A DNA stretch of 34,034 bases from Magnetococcales bacterium DCbin2. Its GTDB lineage: Bacteria; Pseudomonadota; Magnetococcia; Magnetococcales; UBA8363. Numbering within the stretch: the stretch's first letter is position 1; each line of letters starts with the position of its first letter. The notes beneath the pieces were generated by a model. The model made no database searches, was not told the DNA's origin, and worked only from the letters and a program-made list of their open reading frames with translations. A program made the translations under genes and the position numbers. This document shows positions 14,012 to 34,034 of this stretch, in pieces. The DNA lies in the NCBI GenBank assembly GCA_002753615.1, contig PEAO01000029.1, positions 1 through 34,034 on the forward strand, in the 5' to 3' direction.

Positions 14012-14014
14012 CTA
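13945..14014. repeat. Short inverted repeat flanking about 56 bases
   Basis: TAGGGCA (13945-13951) and its complement TGCCCTA (14008-14014) bracket about 56 bases. The right arm includes the TAG stop codon of the giant exoprotein gene. This could be a remnant of a small mobile element, a protein-binding site or chance. No target-site duplication or coding content is visible. Confidence 0.25.
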
Positions 14015-17000
14015 GGCTTCGCGGTTCAATGCATCTTCCTGGGCATTTTCCTGGGCCGGTTGCACGGTTACATCAATCGTTTGCGGTGCGTCCTGACCGG
14101 GAACGTTGACTGTGAGACGCAAACTGATCGGAGCCGATCCCGCCGGGGCGGTTCCAGACACGCTCATGGACTCAGGATCGACGCTCAACCAGGAAGGGAG
14201 CGGTTCCCCAGAGGTTGTTCCGATGGAGACGATATTTCCCTTGGGGACCAATGATGTCAAATCAGCGACAAAACGGGCGTCTGACTTAACCGGCAATACC
14301 AACGGAACGTTGTTCAACCCGGGCGTTATACTGGCACCAATTTCAAAGGCTGGCCGAACGGCAGGGGCCGATGGAAGCTGCACCGCAGGAGTCTGCAATC
14401 CCGCTGTCCCGTTCCCGACACTGGCCAGAGAAACCGCATTCGAACTGTTATTGCCGGTGGCCGTCGCCGAAGTCGAACCTCCCGCTTGACGGGCGTATTG
14501 CTCGGGATCGGGGACAATAGCCGTGGTGATATAACCATTCCCCGCTTCGGTCACGTCCCCTGGGAGATAATCGTCATACCAAGTATGCAGGCGCGTGAAC
14601 GTCCGTGTCAGCCCACCAAGACGCTCCTGATCCAATGCGGGATTATCGTCGTAAACCAACCAGCGTCCGTTGGGTGTCTTGACCGCATTGATTCCGGCCT
14701 TGTTCCAAAACGCCTGGGTAGCGGCCAGAACAACCGCCTCATTGCCATCTCCCTGCCCCGTCACCGCATCATTCACCGTCAGGTCACCCGCCGTGCGCAC
14801 CCAAACCTTGCCGCCAGCACTAACCCCTGTAATGCCTTCCACAGAACCTATCTGCGTACTCCCCGTGTCGTAATAACTCAAATCGCTACCCGTTTCCGCC
14901 GCCAGGGTGCTGACATGGTTGCCATTCACCAATCTAGCCGATTGTCCCGCAACCAGTTTCAGGGTAGAGCCGCTGACCGACGCCGTTCCCGATTCAGTAA
15001 TGGAACCTTGGGTGGAGGTCAAGACCACGGAACCATTTTGCGTCGTCACCCCAGAGCGGTCCCCCACCGTATCCAACGCATAATCACCCACATCGTTGAA
15101 AGACAATCCCTGTTCAATACCCGTCACATTGGCCGCCAGGAGTCCGACATCGTTGGCATCCTCCAGAACAACAGGCCCGGATGTGGTCATCCCAAGACCT
15201 TTATTGGCCGCCGTGAGAACTCCAGCTCCAGTCGTTTGACGCAATGAACCCGAAACGGTGAACAATAGATTGCCCGTAGTGGAAGCAAGACCCAGACTTG
15301 TACCCACGGCATCGGCACCATGAGTGGTCGTCACGCTTCCAACCACAAGGCTATTGTTGTTAATGACCGTAAAATCGCTGCCCGCAATACCGGCAATCGT
15401 CCCGATAGCATTGTCCATCCCATCAAGCGTAGCAAGTCCCCCTGCCGCGACGCGAAGCGAAGTTGTCTGAAGCTTGCCGATGCCCCCTTGGTTGATGGCG
15501 TTCCCGGCAAGCAATGTGACGGTCTGGCCGATTATCTCTGCCCCCAGGGTCTGGCTTCCCGCCACGTTCAACATCACATCACCCGAACCGGCGTTCAGTC
15601 CACGATCAAGGGTTAAATCGCCTGCGGCCAGGGTCAGACCCATGGTAGAATCGGTCGTTTTCAACCCGGAAATGGTGCCAATTGCATGGTCAAGGGTAGA
15701 GGCCCCATTCTGAGGACTGACTTGGCTCAACCGCAGATCGCCCGCCGATTGAAGCAACCATACGGGACCAGCCGACTCCGCAGCCAGCCTGGTAACTCCC
15801 CGCATCTCAATCCGATGGAGATCACTGCCAATAGAAGAATCGGCGAACAACAACACATCACCCCCCGTGGCAATCTCGGTAGCGGTCCCCGTCAAGCTCA
15901 AAGCCGTCAACGCTTTTCCCGCAACCATCTGTACCGTTCCCGTCGTACTCCCCACCGTGGCACTATGATCGATGATCATATCCCCACCATGACCCGCACC
16001 ATGGGTGCGAATGTCCACCCAACCACTGCCATGGGCGGTGATGTTCCGGGTAATCAACAGGTCTCCCCCCTGAGTGGTCAAGGTGATGCTACCATGATTG
16101 GCAGTCGTCGAGATCCCCTGGAGTGCCGTGGCCCGACCCGCAAAAATGGTCGTCTGTCCTTGCGCCGAAAGTGATTGATCCAAGGTACTTGCAGAATTTT
16201 GGAGAATCACATGACCCACATCAAGATGACTCGTACCACCCAGTTTACGCAACCACACGGAGCCGTCCGATCCATTGGATAAGGTACGGGCAGCAACCTT
16301 GGGGGTATTTCCCAATTCCAACCGGTTGCCATCGCTACCAATATTCCCTCCCGCTTCCAACAAAACATCCCCCAGCGTCGCAATCTCCGCCGCCGTCCCA
16401 TTAGCACTGTCGGTGGTGATGGTGTTGCCGGCCAACAATTGAACCGTACCGAGAATGCTTCCCACTGTGGCACCATTGTTGATGGCCATGTCACCCAGAT
16501 TACCGGCATTGGCGGTGCGCAAATCCACAGTGCCGCTGCCATGGGCCATCACATTCTGGGTGATGGTCAAATCGCCACCTTCGGTGGTCAGAGTTACGTG
16601 GCTATCGTTGGCGGTGGTGGAAAGCCCCTTCAACTGAACCACCTTGTCGGCAGACAAAACGACTTGCCCAAAATTTGCCACCGAATTATCCAAAGTGTTT
16701 GAACTATTCTGGACCGTGACGGCACCCAGTTCCACATTGCTCGTACTCCCCAACTTGCGTAGCCACAGGGCGTTGTTGGTGCCGACGGCAAGGGTGCGGG
16801 CAGCCAGAAGGCTTGCGTTACCCAGTTCCAACCGGTTGCTGTCGGTTCCGATACGCCCACCCGCTTCCAACAGCACGTTGCCACTCGTGGAAATTTCCGT
16901 GGAAGTTCCATTGGCACTACGGGTGGTGATGGTATTGCCCGCAATCATCTGCACGATGCCCGTGCCGCTTTGGATCGTCGCGCCATTGTCGATTACAATA

Positions 17001-20000
17001 TCACCCCAATTGCCGACACTGGCGGTGCGCAGATCAACCGCGCCGCTCCCATGGGCGGTAATCCCCTGGGTGATGGTCAGATCGCCCCCTTGAGTCGTCA
17101 GGGTGATCATGCCATTGTTGGCGATGGTGGAAAGCCCTTTCAACTCCGTGGCCACCCCCCCGGACACGGTGACCTGTCCCGTGGCGGAGATGGCATTATC
17201 GAGAACATTGGTCGGGTTTTGGACGGTGACCATTCCGATTTCCAAATCACCCGTTCTGGAAAGTTTGCGCAACCACAAATCACTGCCAGTACCATTAGAC
17301 AGAGTGCGCGCCGCCAGTTTCACATTATTGCCCAACTCAATCCGGTTGCTGTCACTACCCAAACTTAAACCTGCCTCCAACAACACTTGGCCTCCGGTCG
17401 CTATCTCCGTTGTCGTCCCACTCAGACTGTCGGTCGTCAGAGTATTTCCCGCAATCATCTGCACGAGGCCATCGGCACTGCTCACTGTGGCCCCGTTATT
17501 AATGGCGATATCCCCCAGATGGCCGCTGTTGGCGGTACGAATATCCACCGTCCCACGACCATGGGCCATCACGTGCTGGGTAATGGTCACGTCACCCCCC
17601 TGGGTCGTCAGGGTGATGCCGCTGTTGTTGGCGGTCGTGGAAAGCCCTTTCAATTCCACCGCCCTGCCGCCAAAAACCGTCGCGGCTCCCAGTGCCAAAA
17701 CCGCATTGTCCAGGAAATTGGCACTGTTTTGTACCGCGACGGTTCCCAACTCCAAATCGCTTGTGTTACCCAGTTTTCGCAACCACAACGAATTCTCCAA
17801 ACCATTGCCCAAGGTTCGCGCCGCTAATTTTCCCACCAAGCCCGTTTCAATCCGCTTCAAGTCACTCCCCACCCCCAAGCCTGCCTCCAAAAGGAGACTT
17901 CCGCTTGTGGAAATCTCCGTCGTCGTTCCGTTACTGCTATCGGTCGTGATGGCATTGCCGGCAATGATCTGAACCGCGCCGCTGGTGCTACCCACTGTTG
18001 CCCCATTGTTGATGGCGACATCCCCCAGATTTCCCGCATTGGCGGTACGAATATCGACATATCCGTCGCCATGGGCCATGACATTCTGGGTTACGGTGAG
18101 GTCACCACCCCGGGTCGTCACAGTGATATTGCCGTTGTTGGCCGTCGTGGACAAACCTTTCAGCGCGGTTGCCACCCCGTTGGCCAAAATCGTCTGCCCC
18201 GTGGCTGAAACCGCATTATCGAGAACGCTGCCACTATTTTGTACCGTGGCCGAACCTATCTCCAGATCGCTCCCCGGCCCCAGTTTACGCAACCAAAGAT
18301 GACTGCCGGCCCCATTGCCGAGAGTACGCGCCGCAAGCAAACTCACGGAACCCAACTCCACTCGGTGACCGTCGGTCCCAATACGCAAACCCGCTTCCAA
18401 CAATACTTGGCCACTCGTGGAAATCTCGGTAATGGTGCTGTTGGCACTGTCTGTCGTCACGGTGTTCCCCGCAATCACCTGAATGGTGCCGCTGGTGCTA
18501 GAGATAGTTGCGCCGTTATTGATGGCGATATCCCCCAAATTGCCCGTATTGGCGGTACGAATATCCACATACCCGCTGCCGTGGGCGGTGACCCCCTGAG
18601 TGATGGTTAGATCACCCCCTTGTGTGGTCAGGGTGATGTTGCCATTGTTAGCGGTCGTTGTTAAACCATTCAGATTGGATGGGCCAGCCACAAAAGTCAT
18701 CAACCCATTGAAATCCAACGCTCTGACCGAACCAATCTCCAAATCACTGGTAATCCCAAGCTTACGCAGAAAGATGGAATCACCGGCAATCCCCGCCAAC
18801 TTCGCGGCATTGGCAATTTCGATACGATTGGCGTCACTCCCCATCCCGGAGCCGGTTTGCAGAAGAATGTCTCCAGTGGTTCGTAATTCCGTCCCAGAAC
18901 CGTTGGCTGTGTTTGTCGTCAGACTACGACCGGCATAAAACTGAATGGTCCCGCCATGGCCCGAACTGACAGTGGCGGTTTGACCGCTGGCGGGGGTGAT
19001 GGCAATGTCGGATGCGGTTCCATTCGCCCGAAAATCTACCGTCCCCATCCCACCGGCGGTCACGTCGCGGGTCACGATGATACCACCATTCTGGGTTGCG
19101 ATGGCAATCCTCCCATTACTGGCGGTGGTAATCCCCGAAGTCCCATCGACGGTTCCGATACTCAGACCATCTTTTTCGTTTAAGGTATAATCCTGGCCGG
19201 CACCGCCCATCACCGACGACACAGTGCCGATTTCATTGGTATTGCCAAAACTGATGAGATTGAGAGCCACCTTGCCGGTATCCACATCGGTTTTAAGCTT
19301 TCCCGCCTTAACCAGTTGCGTTTGGGTTAAATGATTGGTGGTCGCGGCGTCCACAAGGGTCAGGATGACATCTCCCGTGATCGCCGTAATCCCACTCGTA
19401 GCCCCCACCCCGTGGGATGCGGTCACGGTCCCGATATCGGTGGAACGGGCGTTGCGAAATTTCAACCCTTGGCCGCTGCCGCTGATGCTAGCCGCAAGCG
19501 TTCCGGTGGTCGTCCCCACGGTGCTGTCATAAATCTCGTTAAGGTTGTCCAGGGATGATGTGGACACCCCGTCCAAAAGCAGCGACTTGGCCTTGACGAT
19601 GGCGGAACTGGATTCGGTAATGGCCCCTTTGCCAGAGGCCAACCGGGCAATCGCCCCACTGCCCATAGCACCTCCGTTGGTGGTATCGATGGAATGGGTC
19701 ATCACCACATCACCCGCGGTGCTTGTCGCGTGGGCGGAAGCCTTGAGGATAACATCGCCGATGTTGGTCGTGATACCGCTCACCGTCGTATTGGCCCCGG
19801 TCACCGCCGACGTGATGCTCCCCACGGTCAAACCGTCCAGATCCATCACACTCAACGTTTGACCTACCCCCGCTAAACTCGCCGCCAGAGTGCCGATTTG
19901 ATTGGTGGTATTATCCAAGGTGACGCTGCCGGAATCCACTTTCAAAGACAGTGTGAGGGCCTGGACATCACCCTGACGAACGAAACCGTTGGCGGTGATG

Positions 20001-23000
20001 TCTTGAGTCAGATGACCACTGGGAAGCCACAGGGATCCCGCCCCGGCGGTAACAAAACCATCCTTGTTCACCGCCGTCGTGGTAACGGTGCCGGAGGTGT
20101 CTGCGCTACGGGCACTGTAGGAGACCCGACCCGTCTGAATGCCACCACCGGCGGCCCCATTCTTGAACTCCAACCCTTTTGTCGCATTCACGGCAAGGAT
20201 CCCATCGCTTGCCGCCTGCTTGATCACATTGTCATTCCTGAGTTGAGACAAAACGCCCCCCGAACCGACGTACAGGCTACCGGCGGTAATGGTCGCCGCC
20301 CCCGTTTCCACCACACCGCCACTAATCGTATGGGTCGCATACAGGGCGGCAACCCCCTTGTTCCCGGTATTGATGGACTGGGCGATGGTCAAAGCACCAG
20401 AGGTCGTTCCCACAGTGACCTGATTGCTGGCGGTATTGCTATTGGCGGTAATCCCGGTCGCCGTCCGCGCCGTATTCAACCCCTCGCTGGTGATGGTTCC
20501 GATGGTGAGTGCCTGGGCATTATTGAACGTCAGATGGCCGGTGGTCGCCCCGGTCAGGCTGGCCGACAACGTACCGACGAGATTGCTTCCCGAAAACACA
20601 TAATTCCCTGTTCCCAAAAGCAATAACTGATCCGCCGTCATGGCACTCGCCCCAGCCCCACCCGCTGCGGTATCCATGGTGAGGATACGGGCGGTGGGTG
20701 CCGAGGATCCCTGCACCGTCACCGGTGCGTTCACCTTGATATTTCCCGTCGTCGCCCCCATCAGGAGGGTCGTATTGTCACGAAACGTCGTCGTATCCGC
20801 CACGGTCATCGTCCCGGATCCGTCCGTGCGGCCAATGGTTACCGCCCCGGTCGCCCCCGTCCCAGCGGTTCCATAGCCGGTATTGCCAAACCCCGCCTGG
20901 AACACACTGAGAGAACCGCCATTAAACCAGTTACTCCCTAGGTAAAGCTTCCCGACAATACTGCTGTCTTCATTCAGGTCCGGCGAGGAGGGGTCACCAT
21001 GAAACTGGATATCACGGCTCGCCGTTTCGGGAAGCACCCGAAGTTCCCCAGAACTGGCCACTTTCATGTGCAATGACGAAGAATTTTCAAACTCCATCAG
21101 ATCGGCGGTCAACGTCAGAATCCCTGAGGCACTGATTCCAGAGTTGGTATCACCGGCGTTGATGGCGGAATAGTGCGCCGTCCCCAGGTACATGGTTTGC
21201 CCTTTGGCCAGGATCCCATAACTGTTGCTACCGGTCGTAAAAGAGGTCTTGCCACCGGAGGTGCCGGTCAGAGAGATATTGCCGCTGGTAGAGGCAATAA
21301 CCGTGTAGGTGTCCTCGATGCGGATGCCGTGGTTTTCGCTCACAAAAGTTTTATCCCCGCCACCGCCTTTGCCGGTAATGGTGATGTCACCCGTTGCGGT
21401 CTTGATCAGGGCGGCACTGGAAATGATGACACCATCATAACGGGATCCCCCCGTGGGATTGACCCCAACCGATGAGCTGTCGCCATTCAGGGTGATCGTC
21501 CCCGCACCGGAAGCCTGAAGGGTGACCCGAGATGACCCACCTTCGCCAACGATGAGACCATCCTTGTTCCCGGCATTGGTCGCCACGGTGACACGGCCAT
21601 CCAACGACAGATTGCCGGTACCGGAATTTAAGTCAGTCTGGGCACCAGAGAGGCGGATCCCCGATCCGGCGTTACTGGTCAACGGTGCTTTTCCGTACAG
21701 ATAGATATTACCGGTGGTCGATATCAACTTGCCATTGAGCAGGTAGATCCCATCGGTCACCCCATCCTCATCGCTGCCATACCCGGTGGCATAAGCCTGA
21801 CTTTGACCCAGTTTGATATCGCCACCACTGTTTTGGATGGTCGCACTATTGAGGTAGATACCACCCCCTACGGCCCCGGCGGTTGCAACGAAGGGGTTCA
21901 GATTGACCGCCAGGGATCCCCCACCACCGCCACCGGCGACGGTGCTATCGATGGAACGATTTTTTATTTTGATGGAACGGTCGGCATTGATCGTCAGAGT
22001 ACGGGCGGTCCCATCGGGGGTCTTGAGATCAAAGGTTTCTTGCTTGTAATCGGCATAACCCGACACCCCAGCGCGCGTCCCTCCGGTCACATTGATGGTG
22101 GTATCGGTGGCGTTCATCTTGATGGCGGGCGTCCCCAAGGTGCTGGAGGCCACCAGGACATTGCCCGAAACATCCATCAGATTGATCGTGCTGGAATTGA
22201 GAGTAACGCTGGTGGGGCCTGTCAAAGTCAGGCTTTTCAACTGGGTATTGGCCGCCGCACCACCGATGCTATGATTGCCAGCCGCCGTCCCCAGGGTGAT
22301 GCTTCCTGGGGTATTGCCAGAAGTATCGACGGTCAATGCCTGCGACCACAATACGGCGGGATTGATGGGGGTGGAACTGGCGATATTCTTCTGAAAGTCG
22401 ATGGCACCACCATTCCCGGTATAGCTCCCCCCACTCTCTGGACCCGCCGAAGAAAGCGTCACCGCATAGCCAGGCGCAGCAAGAGAGACATTTTGATAAA
22501 AGGTCATATTCCCCGACGCGGCAATGCTCAGTTCGGTAATTTTCGTGGATACGGGGGTTGCATGTCCCAGAATGGTCGGTTTGTAGAAATTGACCGCGCC
22601 ACCATTGGTCGCCAAGGTTCCGCTCAGCGTAATGGTTCCGGTGGTCGTCGATACGGTACCAAAATCAAGGCTCAGGGCACCGACCGTCGAGGAAATATCC
22701 GCCCCTGAGGAAAGGGTGATATCATTGTCGGCAGCAAAGGTGATTTTTGCCGCCCCTCCCGCTGTTTTGGAAATATCGGCACTGATTGTGATATCACCCG
22801 ACTGCGCACCGCCGGCACTCGTACTCAAGGTCACGTTGGTTCCAGCGTTGATCGCTGCCTCGATGGTACTCGCCTGAACAACCGCACTATCACCATTGGC
22901 TGCGAAACCCGTCCCATCGACGTTGCTGCTGGCAGCCGTCGATACGGTCAGGTTATAGGGGTCAAGCAACCATGTACCGCCATCACCACCCGGCGTTGCC

Positions 23001-24247
23001 ACATCCACCCGTCCCGCTACCCCCAATACGCCGCGACTGGAGGTTTCCACCTGTCCTCCCCGACCCGTACCAGCCCCACGCGCCGAAATCATTCCATCAT
23101 GGCGTGTCGCCTCATTCGACCACAACACGACTGTCCCCCCACTCCCCGCATCCTCTGCATCCGCCTTGACCACCGCCCCCTTTTCCATCACCACCCGCCG
23201 GGGTTCGGGAATCGCCGGATCCCGGCCCTGCCAACCACCGCCAAGATGCACCTTTCCCCCATCCCCTTTGCCGGAGGCATCCACCCGGGCATTGAGAGGC
23301 ACGGTCACACGGTCACCCGTTGCGACAATTACCCCACCCGACTGGCCCGGTTCATTTCCTCGGGCCTCCGTCGTCCCCACCATGCTAACTTCGCCATTGC
23401 CCCCATCCAGCCAGATTTCCCCATTCTTCATCGCCAGCGTATTGGCACGGACCACACCCGATTGATTCACCGCCCCCGCCAAAGCGGGTGAGGCATTTTT
23501 CGCCGTCATCCAGACACGGCCACCGTCCGCGACGATCTTCCCGGAATTTTGAACACGGGCATGGTGACCTGCGGTATCCACTTTGACGCTCACCAATCCG
23601 TTGGGGGTCAAATCCATCGTAACCCCTTCCCCCGCCGCCAATGCCGCCTGACCGCCGTTGGCCCGGATCACCCCCGTATTATCGACACTAGCCCCCACCA
23701 AAGCGACAAATCCCCCCTCACGGGCAGAAATTTCCCCGGCGTTGACCACGCTGCCACCGTTGCCCCCGGAAAACCGATAACGACCGGCGTTAAAATCCTC
23801 ATTCGACATGTTTAGCGATGATGCCGCCAAGCCAGCCGCGTCAATTCGAGCCGAAGGGCCAAAAGTGACCCCCGATGGATTGATCAGAAAGACCCGTCCA
23901 TTGGCAGTCAGGTTGCCGTAGATCTGCGAAGGATCAGCGGAGCGGACCCGGTTGAGGGCAGCGGCTTCGGCGGAGGGTTGCACAAAATTGACGCTGGCAT
24001 CTTTGCCAATGTTGAATGTTTGCCAATCGGCGATCATCGACGGTGTATTCTGGTTGACCGTCATCCGCGTACCCGATTCCACAATATTTCCCTGGCCCGA
24101 AACAACCTGCCCTCCAGTGGGCAATTGATCGACGGCAGGAGGATCGGCATACAATCCTGGACCCACCAAGGCCAACACGATCACCACCAAAATGATCTGA
24201 AAGATGACTTGCGATAAACCGGAGGTCTTCATGAGTAATCTTTCCAT
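14012..24247 (-). CDS. Giant TpsA-type exoprotein (filamentous-haemagglutinin family)
   Basis: A 3411-residue secreted adhesin-like protein, the substrate of the TpsB transporter encoded just before it. Signal peptide at about 1-34 (hydrophobic 14-31). The N-terminal TPS secretion domain at about 38-270 shows NQNTPSMIADWQTFNIG, FLINPSGVTFGPSARIDA and GGFVALVGASV, all family hallmarks. A long right-handed beta-helix-type region follows, with at least six tandem copies of a repeat of about 170 residues (about 1863-2865). Near the C-terminus is the NGRWLVYDDNPA segment found in related adhesins, then a Pro-rich linker and an Ig-like putative domain (PSWLSVDPESMSVSGTAP). It starts 2 bases after the tpsB stop; an inner ATG at 24232 (MKTSG) is the alternative start. 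Secretion route: Sec, then the two-partner pore. The physiological role (adhesion, sheath or matrix) is unknown. Confidence 0.93.
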   Translation of the reverse strand: MERLLMKTSGLSQVIFQIILVVIVLALVGPGLYADPPAVDQLPTGGQVVSGQGNIVESGTRMTVNQNTPSMIADWQTFNIGKDASVNFVQPSAEAAALNRVRSADPSQIYGNLTANGRVFLINPSGVTFGPSARIDAAGLAASSLNMSNEDFNAGRYRFSGGNGGSVVNAGEISAREGGFVALVGASVDNTGVIRANGGQAALAAGEGVTMDLTPNGLVSVKVDTAGHHARVQNSGKIVADGGRVWMTAKNASPALAGAVNQSGVVRANTLAMKNGEIWLDGGNGEVSMVGTTEARGNEPGQSGGVIVATGDRVTVPLNARVDASGKGDGGKVHLGGGWQGRDPAIPEPRRVVMEKGAVVKADAEDAGSGGTVVLWSNEATRHDGMISARGAGTGRGGQVETSSRGVLGVAGRVDVATPGGDGGTWLLDPYNLTVSTAASSNVDGTGFAANGDSAVVQASTIEAAINAGTNVTLSTSAGGAQSGDITISADISKTAGGAAKITFAADNDITLSSGADISSTVGALSLDFGTVSTTTGTITLSGTLATNGGAVNFYKPTILGHATPVSTKITELSIAASGNMTFYQNVSLAAPGYAVTLSSAGPESGGSYTGNGGAIDFQKNIASSTPINPAVLWSQALTVDTSGNTPGSITLGTAAGNHSIGGAAANTQLKSLTLTGPTSVTLNSSTINLMDVSGNVLVASSTLGTPAIKMNATDTTINVTGGTRAGVSGYADYKQETFDLKTPDGTARTLTINADRSIKIKNRSIDSTVAGGGGGGSLAVNLNPFVATAGAVGGGIYLNSATIQNSGGDIKLGQSQAYATGYGSDEDGVTDGIYLLNGKLISTTGNIYLYGKAPLTSNAGSGIRLSGAQTDLNSGTGNLSLDGRVTVATNAGNKDGLIVGEGGSSRVTLQASGAGTITLNGDSSSVGVNPTGGSRYDGVIISSAALIKTATGDITITGKGGGGDKTFVSENHGIRIEDTYTVIASTSGNISLTGTSGGKTSFTTGSNSYGILAKGQTMYLGTAHYSAINAGDTNSGISASGILTLTADLMEFENSSSLHMKVASSGELRVLPETASRDIQFHGDPSSPDLNEDSSIVGKLYLGSNWFNGGSLSVFQAGFGNTGYGTAGTGATGAVTIGRTDGSGTMTVADTTTFRDNTTLLMGATTGNIKVNAPVTVQGSSAPTARILTMDTAAGGAGASAMTADQLLLLGTGNYVFSGSNLVGTLSASLTGATTGHLTFNNAQALTIGTITSEGLNTARTATGITANSNTASNQVTVGTTSGALTIAQSINTGNKGVAALYATHTISGGVVETGAATITAGSLYVGSGGVLSQLRNDNVIKQAASDGILAVNATKGLEFKNGAAGGGIQTGRVSYSARSADTSGTVTTTAVNKDGFVTAGAGSLWLPSGHLTQDITANGFVRQGDVQALTLSLKVDSGSVTLDNTTNQIGTLAASLAGVGQTLSVMDLDGLTVGSITSAVTGANTTVSGITTNIGDVILKASAHATSTAGDVVMTHSIDTTNGGAMGSGAIARLASGKGAITESSSAIVKAKSLLLDGVSTSSLDNLNEIYDSTVGTTTGTLAASISGSGQGLKFRNARSTDIGTVTASHGVGATSGITAITGDVILTLVDAATTNHLTQTQLVKAGKLKTDVDTGKVALNLISFGNTNEIGTVSSVMGGAGQDYTLNEKDGLSIGTVDGTSGITTASNGRIAIATQNGGIIVTRDVTAGGMGTVDFRANGTASDIAITPASGQTATVSSGHGGTIQFYAGRSLTTNTANGSGTELRTTGDILLQTGSGMGSDANRIEIANAAKLAGIAGDSIFLRKLGITSDLEIGSVRALDFNGLMTFVAGPSNLNGLTTTANNGNITLTTQGGDLTITQGVTAHGSGYVDIRTANTGNLGDIAINNGATISSTSGTIQVIAGNTVTTDSANSTITEISTSGQVLLEAGLRIGTDGHRVELGSVSLLAARTLGNGAGSHLWLRKLGPGSDLEIGSATVQNSGSVLDNAVSATGQTILANGVATALKGLSTTANNGNITVTTRGGDLTVTQNVMAHGDGYVDIRTANAGNLGDVAINNGATVGSTSGAVQIIAGNAITTDSSNGTTTEISTSGSLLLEAGLGVGSDLKRIETGLVGKLAARTLGNGLENSLWLRKLGNTSDLELGTVAVQNSANFLDNAVLALGAATVFGGRAVELKGLSTTANNSGITLTTQGGDVTITQHVMAHGRGTVDIRTANSGHLGDIAINNGATVSSADGLVQMIAGNTLTTDSLSGTTTEIATGGQVLLEAGLSLGSDSNRIELGNNVKLAARTLSNGTGSDLWLRKLSRTGDLEIGMVTVQNPTNVLDNAISATGQVTVSGGVATELKGLSTIANNGMITLTTQGGDLTITQGITAHGSGAVDLRTASVGNWGDIVIDNGATIQSGTGIVQMIAGNTITTRSANGTSTEISTSGNVLLEAGGRIGTDSNRLELGNASLLAARTLAVGTNNALWLRKLGSTSNVELGAVTVQNSSNTLDNSVANFGQVVLSADKVVQLKGLSTTANDSHVTLTTEGGDLTITQNVMAHGSGTVDLRTANAGNLGDMAINNGATVGSILGTVQLLAGNTITTDSANGTAAEIATLGDVLLEAGGNIGSDGNRLELGNTPKVAARTLSNGSDGSVWLRKLGGTSHLDVGHVILQNSASTLDQSLSAQGQTTIFAGRATALQGISTTANHGSITLTTQGGDLLITRNITAHGSGWVDIRTHGAGHGGDMIIDHSATVGSTTGTVQMVAGKALTALSLTGTATEIATGGDVLLFADSSIGSDLHRIEMRGVTRLAAESAGPVWLLQSAGDLRLSQVSPQNGASTLDHAIGTISGLKTTDSTMGLTLAAGDLTLDRGLNAGSGDVMLNVAGSQTLGAEIIGQTVTLLAGNAINQGGIGKLQTTSLRVAAGGLATLDGMDNAIGTIAGIAGSDFTVINNNSLVVGSVTTTHGADAVGTSLGLASTTGNLLFTVSGSLRQTTGAGVLTAANKGLGMTTSGPVVLEDANDVGLLAANVTGIEQGLSFNDVGDYALDTVGDRSGVTTQNGSVVLTSTQGSITESGTASVSGSTLKLVAGQSARLVNGNHVSTLAAETGSDLSYYDTGSTQIGSVEGITGVSAGGKVWVRTAGDLTVNDAVTGQGDGNEAVVLAATQAFWNKAGINAVKTPNGRWLVYDDNPALDQERLGGLTRTFTRLHTWYDDYLPGDVTEAGNGYITTAIVPDPEQYARQAGGSTSATATGNNSSNAVSLASVGNGTAGLQTPAVQLPSAPAVRPAFEIGASITPGLNNVPLVLPVKSDARFVADLTSLVPKGNIVSIGTTSGEPLPSWLSVDPESMSVSGTAPAGSAPISLRLTVNVPGQDAPQTIDVTVQPAQENAQEDALNREA
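16109..18658 (-). repeat. Five tandem in-frame 510-bp repeats inside the giant exoprotein gene
   Basis: Five consecutive units of exactly 510 bases (170 residues), with boundaries near 18658, 18148, 17638, 17128, 16618 and 16108. Each begins with L-x-G-(L/I)-(S/T)-T and contains GGDLTITQ-like, NNGATV-like, EISTSG-like, AARTL and LWLRKLG blocks. A shorter degenerate unit follows (to about 15655) and a more divergent one precedes (from about 19135). The strict period and lack of indels suggest duplication with selection on beta-helix register. Confidence 0.9.
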
Positions 24248-24249
24248 AG

Positions 24250-26325
24250 TTAAAACAGGATATTGCCAAATATCCAGATACGGGCATTCTTGCTGGTCCC
24301 ATCACTATCGGCACCGCTTGAAGTCGGATTGGGATTGCTACCCACCTTCTTCGCCCAGGTCAAGTTGACCCCCCCGCGTTCATCACTGACCAGGGCCGCC
24401 CCGACACCGACACCCGAAAGCCGATAATCATTGGGGGCACTGGCAGACAGGGCATTTTCCCAAAGATGATCATATTGGGTAATCCGACCGGTATCGAAAA
24501 AGGTGAAAAGCTGGGGTTCACCAAAATCGGTCTGGCCAAAACTGTAGCGCACTTCCGTCGTCCCCAGCCACCCCGAATCCCCCAACCCCTCCCCAATCGG
24601 GTAGGCACGAACGCCGGTGGGGCCACCCAGTTGAAATTTTTCTGCGCTGTCAAGATTTTTCGAACCAAACATCCCATTGGCCGCGACCGTCCACGACAAT
24701 GCGGAATCCAGTTGTTGTTTGCGCTGCAAGCTCCAGTTGAACTTACCAAAACGACCCTCCGTTCGGGAGGTACCAGCATCGGTAGCCTGATAGGCGGGGT
24801 TTCCCCCGAGGTCCAGGTCACCCAGGCCATAGCCGGCACTCCAACCCATCTGACCATCGAAGGTGTCGATAAGATCCCCGGATGCCCCCAGGGTATAAAG
24901 ATCAATCTTCCGATCATTCAAATCGTCACCATTGAAGCGATTTGCCACATGTTTGGCATCATAGTTGGCCGTCAACCAGACATTTTTCTTGCTGCTGCGG
25001 ACAAAGGGATAACTCCCGAAAAGAGAGGCGACGCTGGTTTCGCTGGAAAGACTCAACGGGACAATCTCTTCATCAATGTCCAGGACCAGTTGCGAATACG
25101 AAGTTCCCAATTTGGCTCCGGTACTCCCCAACGGTACTTGAACGGCGATTTTCCCGCTCATCATACCGCTGGCCTTGGCGGCATTGATGGAAACCCGTTC
25201 ACCGATGCCCGACAGGCTGTTGATGTTGATCTGGGCATTGAGGCGATTGGCTCCCGTATAACGACTCCCATAGTTATCACCCCAGACGGTCCCGGTAACC
25301 GGCCCGGTCTCCTCCACCTTGGCGACCACCTGGGTCGAGCCGGTGAGTGAACCTGGCTCCAGGGTCGTCTTGACCGATTTGATGCCGGGGAGGTCGTTGG
25401 CCAAAAGGACGGCGCGTTCCAGGTCATCCAAACGTAATGGCAAACCAGGGTTGACACCGCTGGCAAGTTGATCCGCGATCACCTCATTCTTGACAAGTGC
25501 CCCACCCCCTTCCACCCTGACCCCATAACTCCCATCCGATCCATCCACCACCCCTTCCTGCACGGCTATTTCAATCTGCCCGGAATCAATCTTCTGCGGT
25601 GGTAAAAACGCCTGAACCAGAGGATACCCCATAGCACGCAAATGGGAGGCAACCATTTCGGAAGCTTGTTTGATTTCATCTATGGATAGGGCTTTGCCGG
25701 TCATGGGCTTCAATAATTCATCAATTTCCTCCTGGCTGACGATGGTCACGCCGGTGACACGAAAGGCTTTCACTTCGATTCGGGGGACCACTTTTTCCCC
25801 TTCTGGTTTTAATGCCAACTGGGTCACAGGGACCGCCAAACCCTGGATGGCAACCGCCACTTTGCCGCCCCCTACCACCGCCCGCGATAATTTAACCTCC
25901 GCCTGGGGATGCCCATGGGCACGCAGGTAAGCGACCACGGCGTGGACCGCCTCCTCAAACTGTGGAAAAGTGATCTCCCGTCCCTTCCAGGGTTCTAGCA
26001 CTTGGCCGAGGGCATCGGCGGAAACTGCCGACAACCCTTCAATGCGAAAATCACCGATAGAAAGCTTCAAACGGGTCAAAGATGTAGACAACTTCGGCAT
26101 CGCGGCACGAATCACCGTTTTTCTCGACGGCGGCAGGCTTGCCGTTTGGACCGCCGTGTCGGCACGCCGTTGGATTTCACTTTGAACGCCACCGTCCAGG
26201 CTATCATCCGGCGCATTAGCGGTCGCCAGCCCGGCAGGTACCCCTATGAGCGACGCCAACACCACCGTTCCAAGCTGTTGTCGGGAATAGGGCGTTCGGA
26301 GGGGAGAAACCTTGTGCGTCATCAT
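24250..26325 (-). CDS. TpsB/FhaC-type two-partner secretion transporter with three POTRA domains
   Basis: An outer-membrane Omp85-family pore (691 residues) that exports the TpsA protein encoded next. Signal peptide at about 1-37. Three POTRA-like domains can be read: about 91-162 (GDFRIEGLSAVS), 184-257 (VKAFRVTGVTIVSQEEID) and 265-338 (YGVRVEGGGALVKNEVI). The beta-barrel runs from about 340 to 691 and holds the conserved motif GVRAYP (571-576, equivalent to VRGY of the family). It ends in phenylalanine, the usual signal for barrel insertion. FhaC has two POTRA domains, so the first copy here is extra. ATG at 26325 overlaps the stop of the adaptor gene (ATGA); a second ATG follows immediately. 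tpsA starts 2 bases after the stop. Family assignment is secure; partner specificity follows from the gene order. Confidence 0.93.
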   Translation of the reverse strand: MMTHKVSPLRTPYSRQQLGTVVLASLIGVPAGLATANAPDDSLDGGVQSEIQRRADTAVQTASLPPSRKTVIRAAMPKLSTSLTRLKLSIGDFRIEGLSAVSADALGQVLEPWKGREITFPQFEEAVHAVVAYLRAHGHPQAEVKLSRAVVGGGKVAVAIQGLAVPVTQLALKPEGEKVVPRIEVKAFRVTGVTIVSQEEIDELLKPMTGKALSIDEIKQASEMVASHLRAMGYPLVQAFLPPQKIDSGQIEIAVQEGVVDGSDGSYGVRVEGGGALVKNEVIADQLASGVNPGLPLRLDDLERAVLLANDLPGIKSVKTTLEPGSLTGSTQVVAKVEETGPVTGTVWGDNYGSRYTGANRLNAQININSLSGIGERVSINAAKASGMMSGKIAVQVPLGSTGAKLGTSYSQLVLDIDEEIVPLSLSSETSVASLFGSYPFVRSSKKNVWLTANYDAKHVANRFNGDDLNDRKIDLYTLGASGDLIDTFDGQMGWSAGYGLGDLDLGGNPAYQATDAGTSRTEGRFGKFNWSLQRKQQLDSALSWTVAANGMFGSKNLDSAEKFQLGGPTGVRAYPIGEGLGDSGWLGTTEVRYSFGQTDFGEPQLFTFFDTGRITQYDHLWENALSASAPNDYRLSGVGVGAALVSDERGGVNLTWAKKVGSNPNPTSSGADSDGTSKNARIWIFGNILF

Positions 26326-27119: not shown

Positions 27120-29110
27120 TCCATCGTCCCCGAAAAAGAGAGTGCTTGCCGCATTTGGAAATCATAGTCAAGCTGCCTGAGGCGAATACGGCGATGAGAT
27201 TTCTCGGTCCGTTTCTGGGCAAACCGATAAAAACCACGGGCCATGGCCTGAAAAAAAGCACTATTAGGGCTGTGCGCCAAGAAAAAACCCAAAGACCTGC
27301 GGACTTGGAAAGACATACCCATCACCAGTTCATCTTCGAGCGACAATAGATACTGGGCACTCCCTGGATCACCCTGACGGGCACAACGACCGATCATCTG
27401 ACGGTCAACACGGGCGTTGTCGTGGCCCTCAGTCAAGATCACATGCAAACCTCCAGCGTCCAACACCCCCGCATCGGGTTGAATATCGGTCCCCCGACCT
27501 GCCATGTTGGTGGCAATGGTGACGCGAGGGCCTTGGCCCGCCTGTTGAATCGTCTGCGCCTCGCTCGCGTCCTGTTTGGCATTTAAAACCAAGTGGTCGA
27601 TCCCTGCCGACGTAAGTCTTGCAGACAGGGCTTCGGATGTAGCCACAGTGCGTGTCCCCACCAGCACCGCCTGGCCCGCATCCCGACAGCGGAGGATCGC
27701 CGCCAACACCGCCAGCCAACGTGCTTCGGCGGTGGCGAAAATCCATGTCGGCAAAAGGCGGCGACGTGAAGCCTTCTGGGGTAAAATGCGCACCACACCC
27801 ACCCCATAAAGATCCACCAGTTCTCCCGCCACCTCCCGACAGGTTCCCGTCATACCGGAAAGCCTGAGATAACGCCGAAAAAACAGTTGATAACTGATGC
27901 GTGCCAAAATCTCTTTTTCGGGACTCACGGGAACATTCTCCTTGATCTCGATCAACTGCTGCAACCCGCGTTCCCAGGAACGGTCGGGCATAACCCTGCC
28001 GGTGTTTTCGTCCACGATCATCACCTTGGGAACCCCCTGATGATCACGGACGATATAGTGAATATCTCGGTGAAAACCATGGAGGGCTTGGAGGGCCTGA
28101 AGCACCGCCTCCTGGGAGCGAATGACCCCTTGCCAGAGGCCCGAAAGGTTGTCCGCCAATTCCCTCAGACGATTATGCCCGATATCGGTCAGATGGGGAA
28201 CCCGCCCATCCATCACATAATCCACATCCCTTTCCAACCGCCTTGCCAGAGCGATGGCCTCGGCATGAAATACCTCGGCATGGGGATCGCGGCGTTCCGC
28301 CGAGATGATCAGCGGCGTCCGGGCCTCATCGATGAAAACGCTGTCCGCTTCATCCACGATTGCAAACTGTAACCCGCGCAGCAAAACCTTGCCCTGCATC
28401 CGCCCGGTCAGCCGATCCATGGCCATGATCAATGGGCGCATATGATCACCCATGGCGATACGATCCCGCAGATAGTCGAATACCAATGTTTTATTGGTGC
28501 AATAGACGATATCTGCCTGGTATTCTCGCCCCTTCTCCTCCGGTTTGGACCCTTCCAACACCAATCCCGTCGTCAAACCAAATGCGGCGTACAACGGTGT
28601 CATCAGGGCGGCATCCCGACTCGCCAGATAATCGTTGACGGTTACCACATGAACCGCCATCCCGGACAAACCCGCCGTGGGGGGAGCCACAAGCGCCCTC
28701 AAAGGATTTCCTTCTCCGGTATCCATTTCCACCACCCGCCCATGCAGCAAATGATACCCCCCCCGCAGTTGTGCCGGAAAATGGCGCATACCGAGAATGT
28801 CTCCACTGCGCCGCCGGATCAGGGCAAACGTTTGCGCTACCGGAGAATCGACAAATCCCTGGCGGCGCATCTGGCGGGCCAGTGTTCCCTGAAGTCGCTC
28901 CATCTCCTCGCGGGACATGGCGTCGATCACAGCACTTTCTTCTTCCACCCGACGTAAAAAAGGTTCCACTCTGGCCGACTGCGCCGAAAACCGCGTTGCC
29001 AGGGTCAAACGGATCCGCTCGCCGACACGATCAAACCAGGGCATCTGCACCCAACTGCGCCGTTGCGGATAAAAATCGCCGATAAGCGTTTGCGCCGGAC
29101 TCGCACTCAT
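27116..29110 (-). CDS. Short SecA-like protein with altered Walker A motif
   Basis: A 664-residue relative of the SecA translocase ATPase, but not housekeeping SecA. NBD1 starts near residue 105. The Walker A region reads MDTGEGNPL at 129-137, where SecA has TGEGKT, so the ATP-binding lysine and threonine are replaced by N135 and P136. VHVVTVNDYLASRDA (153-167) and IVDEADSVFIDEARTPL (251-267, DEAD for DEVD) follow. The preprotein cross-linking region and NBD2 come next, with LSGMTGT (417-423), TNMAGRGTD (534-542) and QMIGRCARQGDPGS (571-584). The chain stops soon after the start of the helical scaffold, so most of the helical scaffold and wing domains and the zinc tail are missing. ATG 29110 overlaps the M50 gene stop (ATGA), which decides the start over an upstream ATG at 29155. 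Partial loss of ATPase activity is inferred. Confidence 0.88.
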   Translation of the reverse strand: MSASPAQTLIGDFYPQRRSWVQMPWFDRVGERIRLTLATRFSAQSARVEPFLRRVEEESAVIDAMSREEMERLQGTLARQMRRQGFVDSPVAQTFALIRRRSGDILGMRHFPAQLRGGYHLLHGRVVEMDTGEGNPLRALVAPPTAGLSGMAVHVVTVNDYLASRDAALMTPLYAAFGLTTGLVLEGSKPEEKGREYQADIVYCTNKTLVFDYLRDRIAMGDHMRPLIMAMDRLTGRMQGKVLLRGLQFAIVDEADSVFIDEARTPLIISAERRDPHAEVFHAEAIALARRLERDVDYVMDGRVPHLTDIGHNRLRELADNLSGLWQGVIRSQEAVLQALQALHGFHRDIHYIVRDHQGVPKVMIVDENTGRVMPDRSWERGLQQLIEIKENVPVSPEKEILARISYQLFFRRYLRLSGMTGTCREVAGELVDLYGVGVVRILPQKASRRRLLPTWIFATAEARWLAVLAAILRCRDAGQAVLVGTRTVATSEALSARLTSAGIDHLVLNAKQDASEAQTIQQAGQGPRVTIATNMAGRGTDIQPDAGVLDAGGLHVILTEGHDNARVDRQMIGRCARQGDPGSAQYLLSLEDELVMGMSFQVRRSLGFFLAHSPNSAFFQAMARGFYRFAQKRTEKSHRRIRLRQLDYDFQMRQALSFSGTME
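28703..28708 (-). other. Walker A Lys-Thr replaced by Asn-Pro in the SecA-like gene
   Basis: Bases 28708-28703 on the minus strand read AAT CCT (Asn-Pro) after GGA GAA GGA, in the place of the AA(A/G) AC(N) (Lys-Thr) codons of canonical SecA. The reading frame and similarity continue on both sides, so this is substitution in at least two codons and not a frameshift. Confidence 0.85.
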
Positions 29111-31251: not shown

Positions 31252-31283
31252 GGAGACGACCCGCCCTTCAAAACCACTTGGGA

Positions 31284-31347
31284 ACCCGACCTGACCGTCG
31301 TTCGCCCCTCCCCCCGATGCTGCGGAATTCTATGGGGCTGGTCGGGT
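31284..31347. other. Long-range hairpin between the GAF-HlyD and M50 genes
   Basis: In the 107-base gap, ACCCGACC (31284-31291) and GGTCGGGT (31340-31347) form a perfect 8-bp stem around a 48-base GC-rich loop. On the transcribed (minus) direction no T-run follows, so it is not a terminator. It might set mRNA stability or the ratio between the two products. Confidence 0.25.
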
Positions 31348-31358
31348 AAAAAGCAACG

Positions 31359-33212
31359 TTAAATCCCGACCCACGACCAAATCTGAAGACGCAACCACTC
31401 GAAGAACCGATGGGTCCATATCCACACCAACAGTTTGCGGTTGACATCGATCTTGCCGACCCCTTCCATGCCAGGACGTAACGTTTTGCTGACGGAATCG
31501 AGATTGGCTTCCACACGGAAATGGTTACGTCCATCGGTGACGCTAGCGACCGGGGTGATCAGGGTGACGATGAATGGAAAGGTTTCTCCCGGCAAAGCCG
31601 CCACCATCAGATCGCCCCTCTGCCCCATGGCGATGCGACCGATATCATATTCTTCGACCTGCAAAACGACGCGATAGGCGTCCAACGGAGCGATTTCAAA
31701 CAGGGTTTGCCCTTTGCTCACCGTACCGCCAAGATGTTGCGAAAGGTCACCACTGACGATCACCCCATCGAACGGCGCAACAATCCGGGAGCGCGACAAC
31801 ATGCTTTCGGATAATTCCCGCTGTGCCGCCGCCTGTCTGGCCTGGGCCAGGGCGATTTGAATCTTGCTCAGGTCATGTTGCGCCTGGGCATCATCTGTTT
31901 GTTTTTGAAATTGCGCCTGCTGGCTCGCCCACCGCGACACCTCCAGGCGGATATCCCGATCATCCAGGCGGACCAGTTCGGTCCCCTCCTTGACCACATG
32001 ACCGGCACGAACCCTGGCCTCGGTAACGTAACCATCGAAGGGGGCCACGATGGCCCGGCGCACCCCCCCTTCCAACACCGCACTCGCCGAGAGCCGATAA
32101 TCCCCCTCGGTAGCGGACAAAAAAAACACCAACGCCAAGGCCAACAGGGCCAGCAACCTGCGACGGACACCCAACGAGCCAACGCCCCCCGGAGATCCTT
32201 CGGTGACCCCATCCAAAAGCTTTTGGTACCACCGGCGTTCGATCCAACGCCGGTGCAGCAAAACCCGGCCCAGGATCGGAGTCAACGCCTCGGCCTGACG
32301 CAAACGGACCTCCGCCACATCCGATTCAGGCCATTCAAAAACGAACACCCCAAGTCGGCGCGTTTCCTGTTCACCTGCCGCAAAAGGGACCGACAAAACC
32401 GTTTCGGCTCCAAAATCCCGCACCAAACGCTGATGGTCGCGTATGGTGATCCAGTCCGGTTGCCCGCCCCCCTGGCCACCACCGGCCTCAGTCTGCGGCG
32501 CATCATACAAACCAACGTGGATCGGGATTGATTGCTCCAGAGCCTCGTTCATTGCCGCTTCGATGGCGTGTGTAAGATCAATACGCCGGGCGACATCCAC
32601 CGCGTGCGACAACGCGGAAAAATGAACCTGAGATCCCTTGACGAACCCCACCGAAACCCGATCACACTGCAACCGAGAGGCCGCCTCGGTCACCAACGCA
32701 TGGATCGCCGCTTCGGCACGGGGAGCCTCAAGGGCAACCATGGTCAGATCCAAGGCAAGAAGAAGACGCTCCCGGAGTTCCGCCTCGTTTTCTTTTTCCC
32801 CCTGCCACCCACTCCGTTCCAACCAACCCTGCCCCCAGCGCAACCACGACATGGCGTTGCGCGGTACGGCACCGACAAAAGCGAGGGCCACCAAACCGCG
32901 CAAATCACCATCGATCATCACCAAGTGCGCCAGCATCCCACGACCGCGATACGCCGTCAGGGAGGTCCGTTTTTCCAGGGCCTGTTCGGAAAGTTGTGCC
33001 AAATCCGCGCTGACCGCCTCCCCCGGCCACATGGCCACCGGATGAAAATGGCCCGATGAGGGATCTGCCAAAAGCAACGTCCCCTCCCGCACCTCTCCAC
33101 CCATTCCCTGAACCAGACAGGCCAGCCAAGTTTGATGAAACTGGATATCCCCATCGCGGCCCAGGACAAGCCATGGATCGGAAACGTTGGCAGACAGTTC
33201 GGTCGTCGCCAT
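31359..33212 (-). CDS. GAF-like sensor fused to a membrane-anchored HlyD-type adaptor
   Basis: A 617-residue protein. The cytoplasmic N-terminal part (1-345) contains a GAF-like domain at about 155-325 (helices from ERLLLALDLTMVALE, strands CDRVSVGFV and AETVLSVPF). The region before it (about 15-115) may be a second, weaker sensor-like domain. One membrane helix follows at about 352-366. The periplasmic part is a HlyD adaptor: lipoyl-like half RAIVAPFDGYVTEARVRAGHVV (split around residues 386-408), coiled coil (420-475), the matching half SRIVAPFDGVIVSGDL, and a beta-barrel to about 595. This layout would couple a cytoplasmic signal or partner protein to the export channel. AAGGGA lies 7 bases before ATG 33212. 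The DUF3467 gene ends 19 bases upstream, so the two are co-transcribed. Confidence 0.85.
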   Translation of the reverse strand: MATTELSANVSDPWLVLGRDGDIQFHQTWLACLVQGMGGEVREGTLLLADPSSGHFHPVAMWPGEAVSADLAQLSEQALEKRTSLTAYRGRGMLAHLVMIDGDLRGLVALAFVGAVPRNAMSWLRWGQGWLERSGWQGEKENEAELRERLLLALDLTMVALEAPRAEAAIHALVTEAASRLQCDRVSVGFVKGSQVHFSALSHAVDVARRIDLTHAIEAAMNEALEQSIPIHVGLYDAPQTEAGGGQGGGQPDWITIRDHQRLVRDFGAETVLSVPFAAGEQETRRLGVFVFEWPESDVAEVRLRQAEALTPILGRVLLHRRWIERRWYQKLLDGVTEGSPGGVGSLGVRRRLLALLALALVFFLSATEGDYRLSASAVLEGGVRRAIVAPFDGYVTEARVRAGHVVKEGTELVRLDDRDIRLEVSRWASQQAQFQKQTDDAQAQHDLSKIQIALAQARQAAAQRELSESMLSRSRIVAPFDGVIVSGDLSQHLGGTVSKGQTLFEIAPLDAYRVVLQVEEYDIGRIAMGQRGDLMVAALPGETFPFIVTLITPVASVTDGRNHFRVEANLDSVSKTLRPGMEGVGKIDVNRKLLVWIWTHRFFEWLRLQIWSWVGI

Positions 33213-33231
33213 CGCAACGTCCCTTGATCAC

Positions 33232-33528
33232 TCAGAGCTTGAGTTCACCATAACGGGCCTCATATTCACGCAACCCCATCTCCAGCAGTGCCATAAGACG
33301 TTTGGCCGCATAAGGGTTTAAAACGATGCGATTGGACAGCATGACTTTGACCTCTTTTTGGTCCGCCTGCCACGCCTGATTGGCACCAAACAGCACCATG
33401 ATTTCCTCCCGCGTCCCCATGACATTGCAAACATTGGCATAGGTCGTCTGCATGTGGCTGTCATCCCAGACAATCTGCGTCGCTGGAATGGTGTTGGTAA
33501 CGCTCGTTTCTTCTGGTGGGGATGCCAT
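33232..33528 (-). CDS. DUF3467 family protein
   Basis: A 98-residue soluble protein that fits the DUF3467 pattern: a YAN motif near the start of the conserved part (TTYANVCNV), an acidic/hydrophobic strand (EIMVLFGAN), then KVMLSNRIVLNPYAAKRL and a C-terminal helix ending in YEARYGEL. The molecular function of the family is not established. The start is ATG 33528, because AAGGAG lies about 10 bases before it; a GTG 24 bases further upstream would include this ribosome site in the coding region. It is the second visible gene of the export cluster, 19 bases ahead of the GAF-HlyD gene. A regulatory or cytoplasmic accessory role is inference only. Confidence 0.82.
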   Translation of the reverse strand: MASPPEETSVTNTIPATQIVWDDSHMQTTYANVCNVMGTREEIMVLFGANQAWQADQKEVKVMLSNRIVLNPYAAKRLMALLEMGLREYEARYGELKL

Positions 33529-33592
33529 CGTCCTTTTTCTCCTTGAAAACACAATTGTTTGATTTAAAGATGCAGGGCTACATCAACCCATT

Positions 33593-34034
33593 CTAAATGG
33601 CTCGCGCTGTCCGTGAGCCGAGAGTGACCACACGCCGATGCGGCGTAGCGGACGGTGGTGGAAGTTTATCCCAAACGATACGCCCTCCGCCTTGTCCCGA
33701 AGCCATGACCGAACCAACCAGAAGACCCGTCATCGCATCGAAGGCCATCCCTTCGTGACCGTCATCCGATGAGATATCGGAAGGGTTCCCCTTGTTGGCC
33801 ATGCGACCATCCCCAGGTTGGGGGACTGTCTGAGCCTGGGGTTGTCCCTCGGCGGGTGGTTGTCCCTCGGCGGGTGGTTGTCCCTCTGCGGGTGATTGTC
33901 CCTCAGCGGGTGGTTGTCCCTCAGCGGGTGGTTGTCCCTCGGCGGGTGGTTGTCCCTCTGCGGGTGGTTGCCCCTCCGCAGGTGGTTGTCCCTCGGCGGG
34001 TGGTTGTCCCTCGGCGGGTGGTTGCCCCTCGGCT
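33593..34034 (-). CDS. Partial gene: protein with PPAEGQ hexapeptide repeats, runs off the window
   Basis: The frame ending in TAG at 33593 stays open to the window edge, so the start lies outside. The visible 147 residues are ten copies of a Pro-Pro-Ala-Glu-Gly-Gln hexapeptide (one with Ser for Pro), then a short [13 protein letters not shown] linker, and a C-terminal region of about 70 residues. That region contains [20 protein letters not shown] and a basic tail ending RTARAI. An internal ATG at 33802 could be mistaken for the start, but the continuous in-frame repeat argues that it is not. Family not recognised. The repeat resembles extended Pro-rich spacers that cross the periplasm or cell wall (TonB-like or adhesin linkers). 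It lies 64 bases upstream of the DUF3467 gene on the same strand, so probably in the same operon. Confidence 0.7.
33843..34034 (-). repeat. Tandem 18-bp repeat, about 10.6 copies
   Basis: Ten complete 18-base units and a 12-base partial unit in direct tandem array without spacers. Differences between units fall mostly in third codon positions (GCC/GCA/GCT/GCG for Ala), so the peptide PPAEGQ is kept. This silent variation argues for selection on the protein, and the array may vary in copy number between strains. Confidence 0.92.

Follow-up and report, generated by a model that had tools for sequence, protein, structure and literature searches.

Secondary SecA proteins without a wing domain have been described from loci that resemble type I secretion systems (T1SS). 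Kamneva, Poudel and Ward (2015; PMC4452313) found such SecA_DEAD proteins encoded beside M50/HlyD, GAF/HlyD and HlyD genes, sometimes with an outer-membrane channel (OEP) gene and in the absence of an ABC transporter. They proposed a T1SS-like reading with SecA as the ATPase and the M50 protein as the membrane part, pointed to a related SecA2 clade from Actinobacteria, and called the broader role of the machinery “completely unknown”. The machinery itself is therefore already known; in the main text of that paper the words giant, LEPR, two-partner, adhesin, cargo, leader, exoprotein and hemagglutinin are all absent. Here we analyze an operon of this type in the Magnetococcales bacterium DCbin2, on contig PEAO01000029.1 (C39), the whole of which, 34,034 bases from a 3.36-Mb genome of 201 contigs, is the window referred to below. 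We interpret the operon, with a probability of about 0.6, as a lineage-specific form of the secondary-SecA/T1SS-like export locus whose main cargo is a giant protein with an LEPR-XLL leader, the gene of which ends at the right edge of the window. Set against the literature found, including the main text of that paper, the new elements are the cargo link, the covariation of leader and M50 hub, variants with a degenerate SecA or none, and the form coupled to two-partner secretion (TPS).

The window has in common with the described locus a wing-less second SecA and adjoining M50-HlyD and HlyD genes (Kamneva et al. 2015). As to the GAF/HlyD gene, the initial annotation named GAF-HlyD here, and the HlyD part stands; Pfam finds no GAF domain in the window copy but does so in six of the seven homologues scanned alongside. 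The window differs in SecA, for which an ATPase function was proposed; the window copy has no working Walker A motif, although this is not a strict defining feature.

From two-partner secretion (type Vb) the window has a TPS-domain TpsA and a POTRA/Omp85-type TpsB in one operon. Canonical TpsB proteins have two POTRA domains only, again not a strict defining feature, and the window departs from this type by an extra N-terminal POTRA and in that the pair is joined to the SecA/M50/HlyD operon. Shared with type I secretion and tripartite efflux are the HlyD-type adaptors and a channel of the TolC family. The signal of a T1SS substrate is C-terminal, whereas here the leader is N-terminal, and the window has an M50 hub and a SecA-like protein, with no ABC, RND or MFS pump among the 19 open reading frames (ORFs) scanned. 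The initial annotation had likewise noted that no ABC or RND pump is encoded, which holds for these ORFs, but it had overlooked the AMIN-TolC (OEP) gene of the set, 363 bases past TpsA. In the Gram-positive accessory Sec system SecA2/SecY2 a second SecA is tied to large surface proteins; the window SecA differs in having no wing, is separate from the housekeeping SecA tested, and is accompanied by no SecY among the 19 scanned ORFs, the remainder of the genome not having been searched for SecY. LEPR-XLL leaders (NCBIfam NF012209) open very long frames, the longest here of 19,427 aa, and NF012209 is a domain name only, with no machinery attached in its records consulted. To our knowledge, it is largely an open question by what means proteins of 5,000 to 19,000 residues leave bacterial cells.

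The gene cut by the right edge had been taken for a hexapeptide-repeat protein. In G004, a genome of the same genus whose accessory SecA is 94% identical to that of the window, a 7,126-aa LEPR frame ends almost exactly like this ORF, with the same DUF3467 and HlyD genes coming next, so the supposed hexapeptide gene is instead the C-terminal end of an LEPR-XLL giant. Relatives with TPS genes (G040, G031, G005, G029 and G018) have a single frame, between 6,555 and about 14,900 aa long, that opens with an LEPR-XLL leader and lies upstream of DUF3467 or GAF-HlyD, two other genes intervening in G005. A matching LEPR leader is found in the window's own genome at C189:25953, opening a frame that runs to the contig end.

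The link between LEPR proteins and the M50 hub extends well beyond these relatives. Among 199 genomes of the phylum, with at most five hub candidates scored per genome, 30 have NF012209, 63 the M50 hub and 23 the accessory SecA, and the hub occurs in all 30 LEPR genomes (Fisher 2.5e-18); outside Magnetococcales it occurs in 12 of 12 LEPR genomes among 168. Hubs lie within 60 kb on the same contig for 24 of 42 LEPR starts, while 17 have no hub on their contig. A second draw of 377 genomes, all of one class and with two hub candidates scored per genome, had the hub in 26 of 28 LEPR genomes (56 with M50; Fisher 2e-22), G054 and G101 being also in the first sample. No LEPR match was found in 14 control genomes of the family searches. 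The initial annotation had suggested recording whether a large exoprotein gene is adjacent to such loci, and adjacency was borne out in the named loci, 80 of which were kept out of 550 for their similarity to the window M50 and which are not a random sample: by a mechanical rule, 35 of the 42 with at least 9 kb on either side of the hub have a giant ORF or LEPR start, and L116 and L123 come on top of these by eye, with the caveat that where the DNA is GC-rich a number of the long frames may not be real. We found no literature link between LEPR proteins and this machinery, in a search whose scope left out most subscription papers and all bioRxiv preprints.

The ending of the leader changes with the hub. 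Hubs fall into clade I, usually accompanied by SecA, clade II and a third clade; within 1.5 kb of 107 hub matches under 600 bits, which represent clade II, there was no accessory SecA match. In the exploratory set, clade I leaders end in S-A/G-D/E or similar (32 S and 1 N of 33) and clade II leaders in D-A/G-A/G/T (9 of 9 D, the hub of L021 being frame-broken). The contrast of 33 not-D with 9 D leaders by hub clade gives a Fisher value of 2e-9 that ignores shared ancestry; stronger than this value is the contrast within genomes, as G018 and the window's own genome each hold both leader/hub pairings. The second sample, free of repeats, gave 18 S and 1 A of 19 for clade I, 1 of 1 D for clade II, and SAN three times and DAN once for the third clade. 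These counts omit the repeats L272 (= L171, in the named set), L275 (= L216) and L257 (= L220), the unreadable L274, and further second matches of G727, G753, G553 and G671, with L081 = L231 counted once. G690 has an S-type leader and a low, clade II-like hub score; its hub is placed in clade I by the tree (94/96), on a long branch that makes the position less sure. The hubs of the third clade (L294, L297, L298 and L303; leaders L263, L266, L267 and L273) have no SecA match nearby. The LEPR link and the change of leader with hub amount to a testable cargo-recognition rule, applicable also in named isolates with loci that include Marinobacterium, Roseovarius, Bradyrhizobium and Zoogloea.

We tentatively propose, for Gram-negative bacteria, a form of giant export without an ABC transporter, in which the PqqD-M50 hub reads the leader in a clade-specific way (SAD/SGE, SAN, DAA/DGA), the wing-less SecA is an optional motor, exit is by TolC, and a TPS pair with a modified TpsB has been wired in within one lineage. 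In systems for peptide maturation, it is the PqqD fold that binds the leader peptide. The giant, which has no clear Sec signal peptide, would be bound through its LEPR leader by the cytosolic PqqD domain of the hub; the hub would stand in for an ABC transporter, place the chain at the inner membrane and perhaps cut the leader. Where present and intact, the wing-less SecA would clamp and push the chain, and the HlyD modules of the hub, of GAF-HlyD and of the small HlyD protein would connect it to the AMIN-TolC channel. TpsA, an addition in the window's clade, would travel by Sec, and the extra POTRA of its TpsB may dock to the adaptors, a docking by which both surface proteins would be made together. 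The sequences themselves establish the gene set and its conservation, the link to the giants, the covariation of leader and hub and the tie of TPS genes to a single clade; leader binding and cleavage, energy supply, passage by TolC and the docking of TpsB are inferred.

In NCBIfam the M50 protein comes closest to peptide-maturation proteases, under cut-off (daptide M50, 5e-41), which could mean that the locus is no exporter and is instead an M50/GAF signalling or leader-maturation module lying beside giant genes by chance. Three HlyD modules, a TolC protein and the leader/hub covariation fit transport, however, and we regard this possibility as very unlikely. Hub residues H210, E211, H214 and D312 are invariant in 18 and in 31 sequences, and the HlyD part of the hub model has Foldseek matches to MexA-type proteins.

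The initial gene set, on one strand throughout, is borne out by ORFs and Pfam (table 1), and the three ATGA overlaps and the 2-base gap between TpsB and TpsA can be read directly in the DNA. In TPS-type loci the spacing from M50 to SecA is −11 to +4 bases (nine loci with the joint) and from SecA to HlyD −4 to +16 (ten loci), taking, in the ten TPS-type loci other than the window, the start codon closest to the preceding stop. The M50 hub is present in all 35 Magnetococcales loci with accessory SecA, next to SecA in those listed, together with GAF-HlyD in 28, HlyD in 30, OEP in 19 and TpsB in 10; these include the window and L015, and some are cut by contig ends. A same-strand M50 gene adjoins the accessory SecA in 30 of 31 cases, the remaining one being at a contig end. 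The named loci, from Pseudomonadota, Nitrospirota, Thermodesulfobacteriota and Myxococcota, have the SecA-like gene directly after M50 in 70 of 73 (at least 1 kb beyond M50), GAF-HlyD in 72 of 72 (at least 2 kb before M50) and HlyD in 49 of 62 (at least 4 kb beyond M50). Since gene order and tight spacing recur across loci, the arrangement is not due to chance.

Table 1. Genes of the putative export operon and its neighbors in the DCbin2 window
Feature	Position	Strand	Basis
AMIN + TolC-type outer-membrane channel (OEP), 888 aa	10982-13648	minus	Pfam OEP 1.2e-48, AMIN; NCBIfam type_I_sec_TolC above cut-off
TpsA, 3411 aa, TPS domain, hydrophobic signal-like N-terminal stretch	14012-24247	minus	PF05860 4.4e-32; TIGR01901; hydropathy
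TpsB, 691 aa, POTRA + ShlB barrel, extra N-terminal POTRA	24250-26325	minus	PF08479 twice; PF03865 1.7e-23
Short HlyD/RND-type periplasmic adaptor, 265 aa	26322-27119	minus	PF16576, PF13437, TIGR01730 above cut-off
Accessory SecA-like protein, 679 aa	27116-29155 (alternative start 29110)	minus	Pfam, alignments, AF2 model, Foldseek
PqqD + M50 (HExxH ... NPxxxxDG) + HlyD hub, 714 aa	29107-31251	minus	Pfam PqqD 6.2e-06; M50 5e-4, below cut-off
GAF-type sensor-like half (N-terminal) + HlyD adaptor, 617 aa; GAF in homologues only	31359-33212	minus	Pfam
DUF3467 protein, 106 aa	33232-33552	minus	PF11950 3.6e-26
C-terminal end (AEGQPP repeats) of LEPR-XLL giant, cut by contig edge	33593-34034	minus	Near-identical end of G004 frame

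The TPS genes are confined to a small part of this distribution. Window-type TpsB (at least 485 bits) was found in 11 of 41 genomes, all with accessory SecA, in ten adjacent to it and in G037 at contig edges. Of the three POTRA domains initially assigned to TpsB, two are recognized by Pfam and the third is putative; the extra N-terminal POTRA_2 lies at about residues 90-159, and for most other TpsB proteins of the order the alignment begins only at about residue 140-190. Within the order, TPS genes beside the accessory SecA are limited to the window's SecA clade, and all TPS loci form one SecA clade that includes Zoogloea (SH-aLRT 93), whose next relative, Marinobacterium (100), has no TPS genes in the flanks retrieved. 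The TPS pair was therefore probably joined to the machine once, and its TpsB is of an altered kind. TpsA and TpsB thus look like a lineage-specific addition that is perhaps functionally coupled to the exporter; in this branch, two types of secretion would have an operon in common and possibly an assembly as well.

The initial annotation had proposed a dedicated inner-membrane and periplasmic assembly for a giant exoprotein, namely TpsA. The assembly, its linkage to a giant and the tight coupling of its genes hold; TpsA as the principal giant probably does not, and it is not the usual neighbor, which is an LEPR-XLL giant; TPS genes occur in just 2 of the 80 named loci within the flanks retrieved. 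A machinery that serves TpsA alone, for its delivery, processing or anchoring by way of TpsB, would explain why translational coupling reaches TpsA, why TpsB with the extra POTRA occurs only with this SecA in the 41 genomes searched, and why M50, SecA, HlyD and TpsB hold together in G002, G004 and G006. We nevertheless consider it unlikely, given that 78 of the 80 named loci and other Magnetococcales loci have no TPS genes in the retrieved DNA and commonly another giant, and that TpsA carries its own signal-like N-terminus. The distribution likewise set back the idea of TpsA as a substrate for the SecA-like protein. In G002, G004 and G006 the M50-SecA-HlyD-TpsB block is contiguous, with the giant/GAF half on another contig in G004 and G006. 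In G002 and G006 no TpsA follows TpsB, and TpsA lies on another contig; the one in G002 is 80% identical to that of the window over 1,820 aa.

The extra POTRA and the linkage to HlyD and SecA could also mean that TpsB has taken over from TolC as the way through the outer membrane for the machine as a whole, the giant and TpsA alike. In other Magnetococcales loci that hold both genes OEP adjoins HlyD, a place occupied by TpsB in the TPS-type loci, which agrees with such a replacement. It is made improbable by the related OEP gene, which is still retained beside the giant or after TpsA: OEP precedes the LEPR giant in G040, G031, G029 and G018, and the window OEP is 38-57% identical to the OEPs at that place in these four genomes, whereas two further OEPs from the window's own genome do not match it. 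From these similarities, the window OEP is likely an orthologue of the OEPs beside LEPR giants and likely the dedicated channel of the system.

The accessory SecA-like protein comprises NBD1, PPXD, NBD2 and the first part of the scaffold helix, without the wing or two-helix finger. Pfam gives no SecA_SW (wing-scaffold) match in the window protein, its model stopping in the first scaffold helix. An AF2 model built from 36 sequences (mean pLDDT 88.6) is closest to SecA in Foldseek, the highest query-normalized TM-score listed being 0.78 for 6itc, a SecA engaged with SecY. The 36 accessory SecAs aligned, the window's and 35 from named loci with low-scoring copies left out, all end 76-83 residues past motif VI, most with an LAFSGxxE-like tail, which makes shortness a trait conserved across the family. 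A housekeeping-type SecA of 915 aa is encoded besides on contig C138 of the same genome, and in a tree of 71 proteins the accessory SecAs lie on one side of a branch (SH-aLRT 100) from eight housekeeping SecAs. The E cut-off of 1e-165 for accessory SecA does not separate the two cleanly everywhere. In one draw of 370 genomes of another class, that of G161 (three candidates scored per genome), there were six SecA matches, but four have 860-888-aa frames and look like housekeeping SecA; on this reading 2 of the 370 carry the accessory SecA, pointing to a patchy distribution of the system. At L078 (G031:C26) the export locus is otherwise complete, but its accessory SecA is split over two frames.

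Several observations weigh against our interpretation. The window SecA has GEGNP in place of GEGK[ST] at Walker A, and at the usual place in the locus eight SecA-like genes are without Walker A and without a normal Walker B, having lost other ATPase motifs as well where covered. They belong to Magnetococcales (L080-L083), a gammaproteobacterium (L098), Roseovarius (L116), Parabeggiatoa (L126) and Seongchinamella (L130); L082 and L126 are only weakly SecA-like, below Pfam's SecA cut-off, L083 is cut by its contig, and L098, L116 and L130 retain the conserved tail. SecA is absent beside 6 of 26 clade I hubs with enough sequence (7 of 27 with G690) among 40 loci fetched from the second sample, and is not next to the hub in 3 of 73 named loci. 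As degenerate ATPase copies occur in several lineages and SecA is not universal, the accessory SecA may not be the only motor. On the cargo side, G013 and G014 carry accessory SecA without LEPR, and in G603 and G709, where two candidates were scored per genome, LEPR (leaders SAS and STS) was found without a detected hub. The window giant is read from relatives, its own N-terminus, where the NF012209 leader would be, lying outside the window. The leader contrast includes just ten clade II leaders in total, with the hub in the second sample often assigned by genome and score rather than by adjacency. The N-termini of 22 giants have no strong hydrophobic stretch (maximum 15-residue mean 0.37-1.86), but the ranges overlap, with giants up to 1.86 and TpsA from 1.47, and these are hydropathy values only and not a signal-peptide prediction.

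The degenerate copies, some with the conserved C-terminal tail, the clade I loci without SecA and the absent two-helix finger would be accommodated if the SecA-like protein were a structural or substrate-holding part (a PPXD clamp) and not a motor, energy coming from housekeeping SecA/SecYEG or the proton gradient. We regard this as less likely than not, because Walker A is intact in 35 of the 36 aligned copies, low-scoring ones being left out of that alignment, and motifs III, V and VI are retained in the intact copies. The sole exception is the window copy itself. Its patch (28680-28706, minus strand) has 12 substitutions of mixed types in 27 bases, and no indels, relative to the G004 copy, which is 93% identical in DNA and has an intact Walker A; with no clear signature, assembly error is as likely as mutation. 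The simple idea that the window SecA is the energy source was set back by this patch together with the degenerate copies elsewhere.

Two further patterns in the giants were followed without yielding a rule. A (I/V)xW motif occurs in the last 70 residues of 24 of 39 giants, against 3.1 ± 1.5 for random windows, but the pattern was found post hoc in the same sequences, one gene was entered twice (L142 = G040), and the motif is only a lead. When 14 ends were read separately, five fitted the motif loosely. One of them, L188, had been part of the first set, two (L186 and L203) share the genome G054, and the matches in L194 and L208 seem fortuitous. Giants with the motif lie upstream of DUF3467, for example in L201, L188, G040 and G018. 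The idea that SecA is needed for longer giants arose from the first sample, with 4161-15434 aa for 14 SecA-linked and 2414-4504 aa for 7 SecA-less giants (p 7e-5). SecA-linked giants of 1243 and 1935 aa turned up later, leaving a tendency and not a rule (22 against 10 giants, p 8e-4, subject to shared ancestry); frames whose contig also carries a hub were picked by hand, and those cut by contig ends dropped. The longest frame found, of 19,427 aa, is opened by the LEPR leader at about position 112865 of G005:C115 (L232).

Elsewhere in the window, positions 3886-6379 hold a BsuBI/PstI-type restriction endonuclease gene and an adjoining Eco57I-type methylase gene, among cobalamin-type, CobW and HypA genes.

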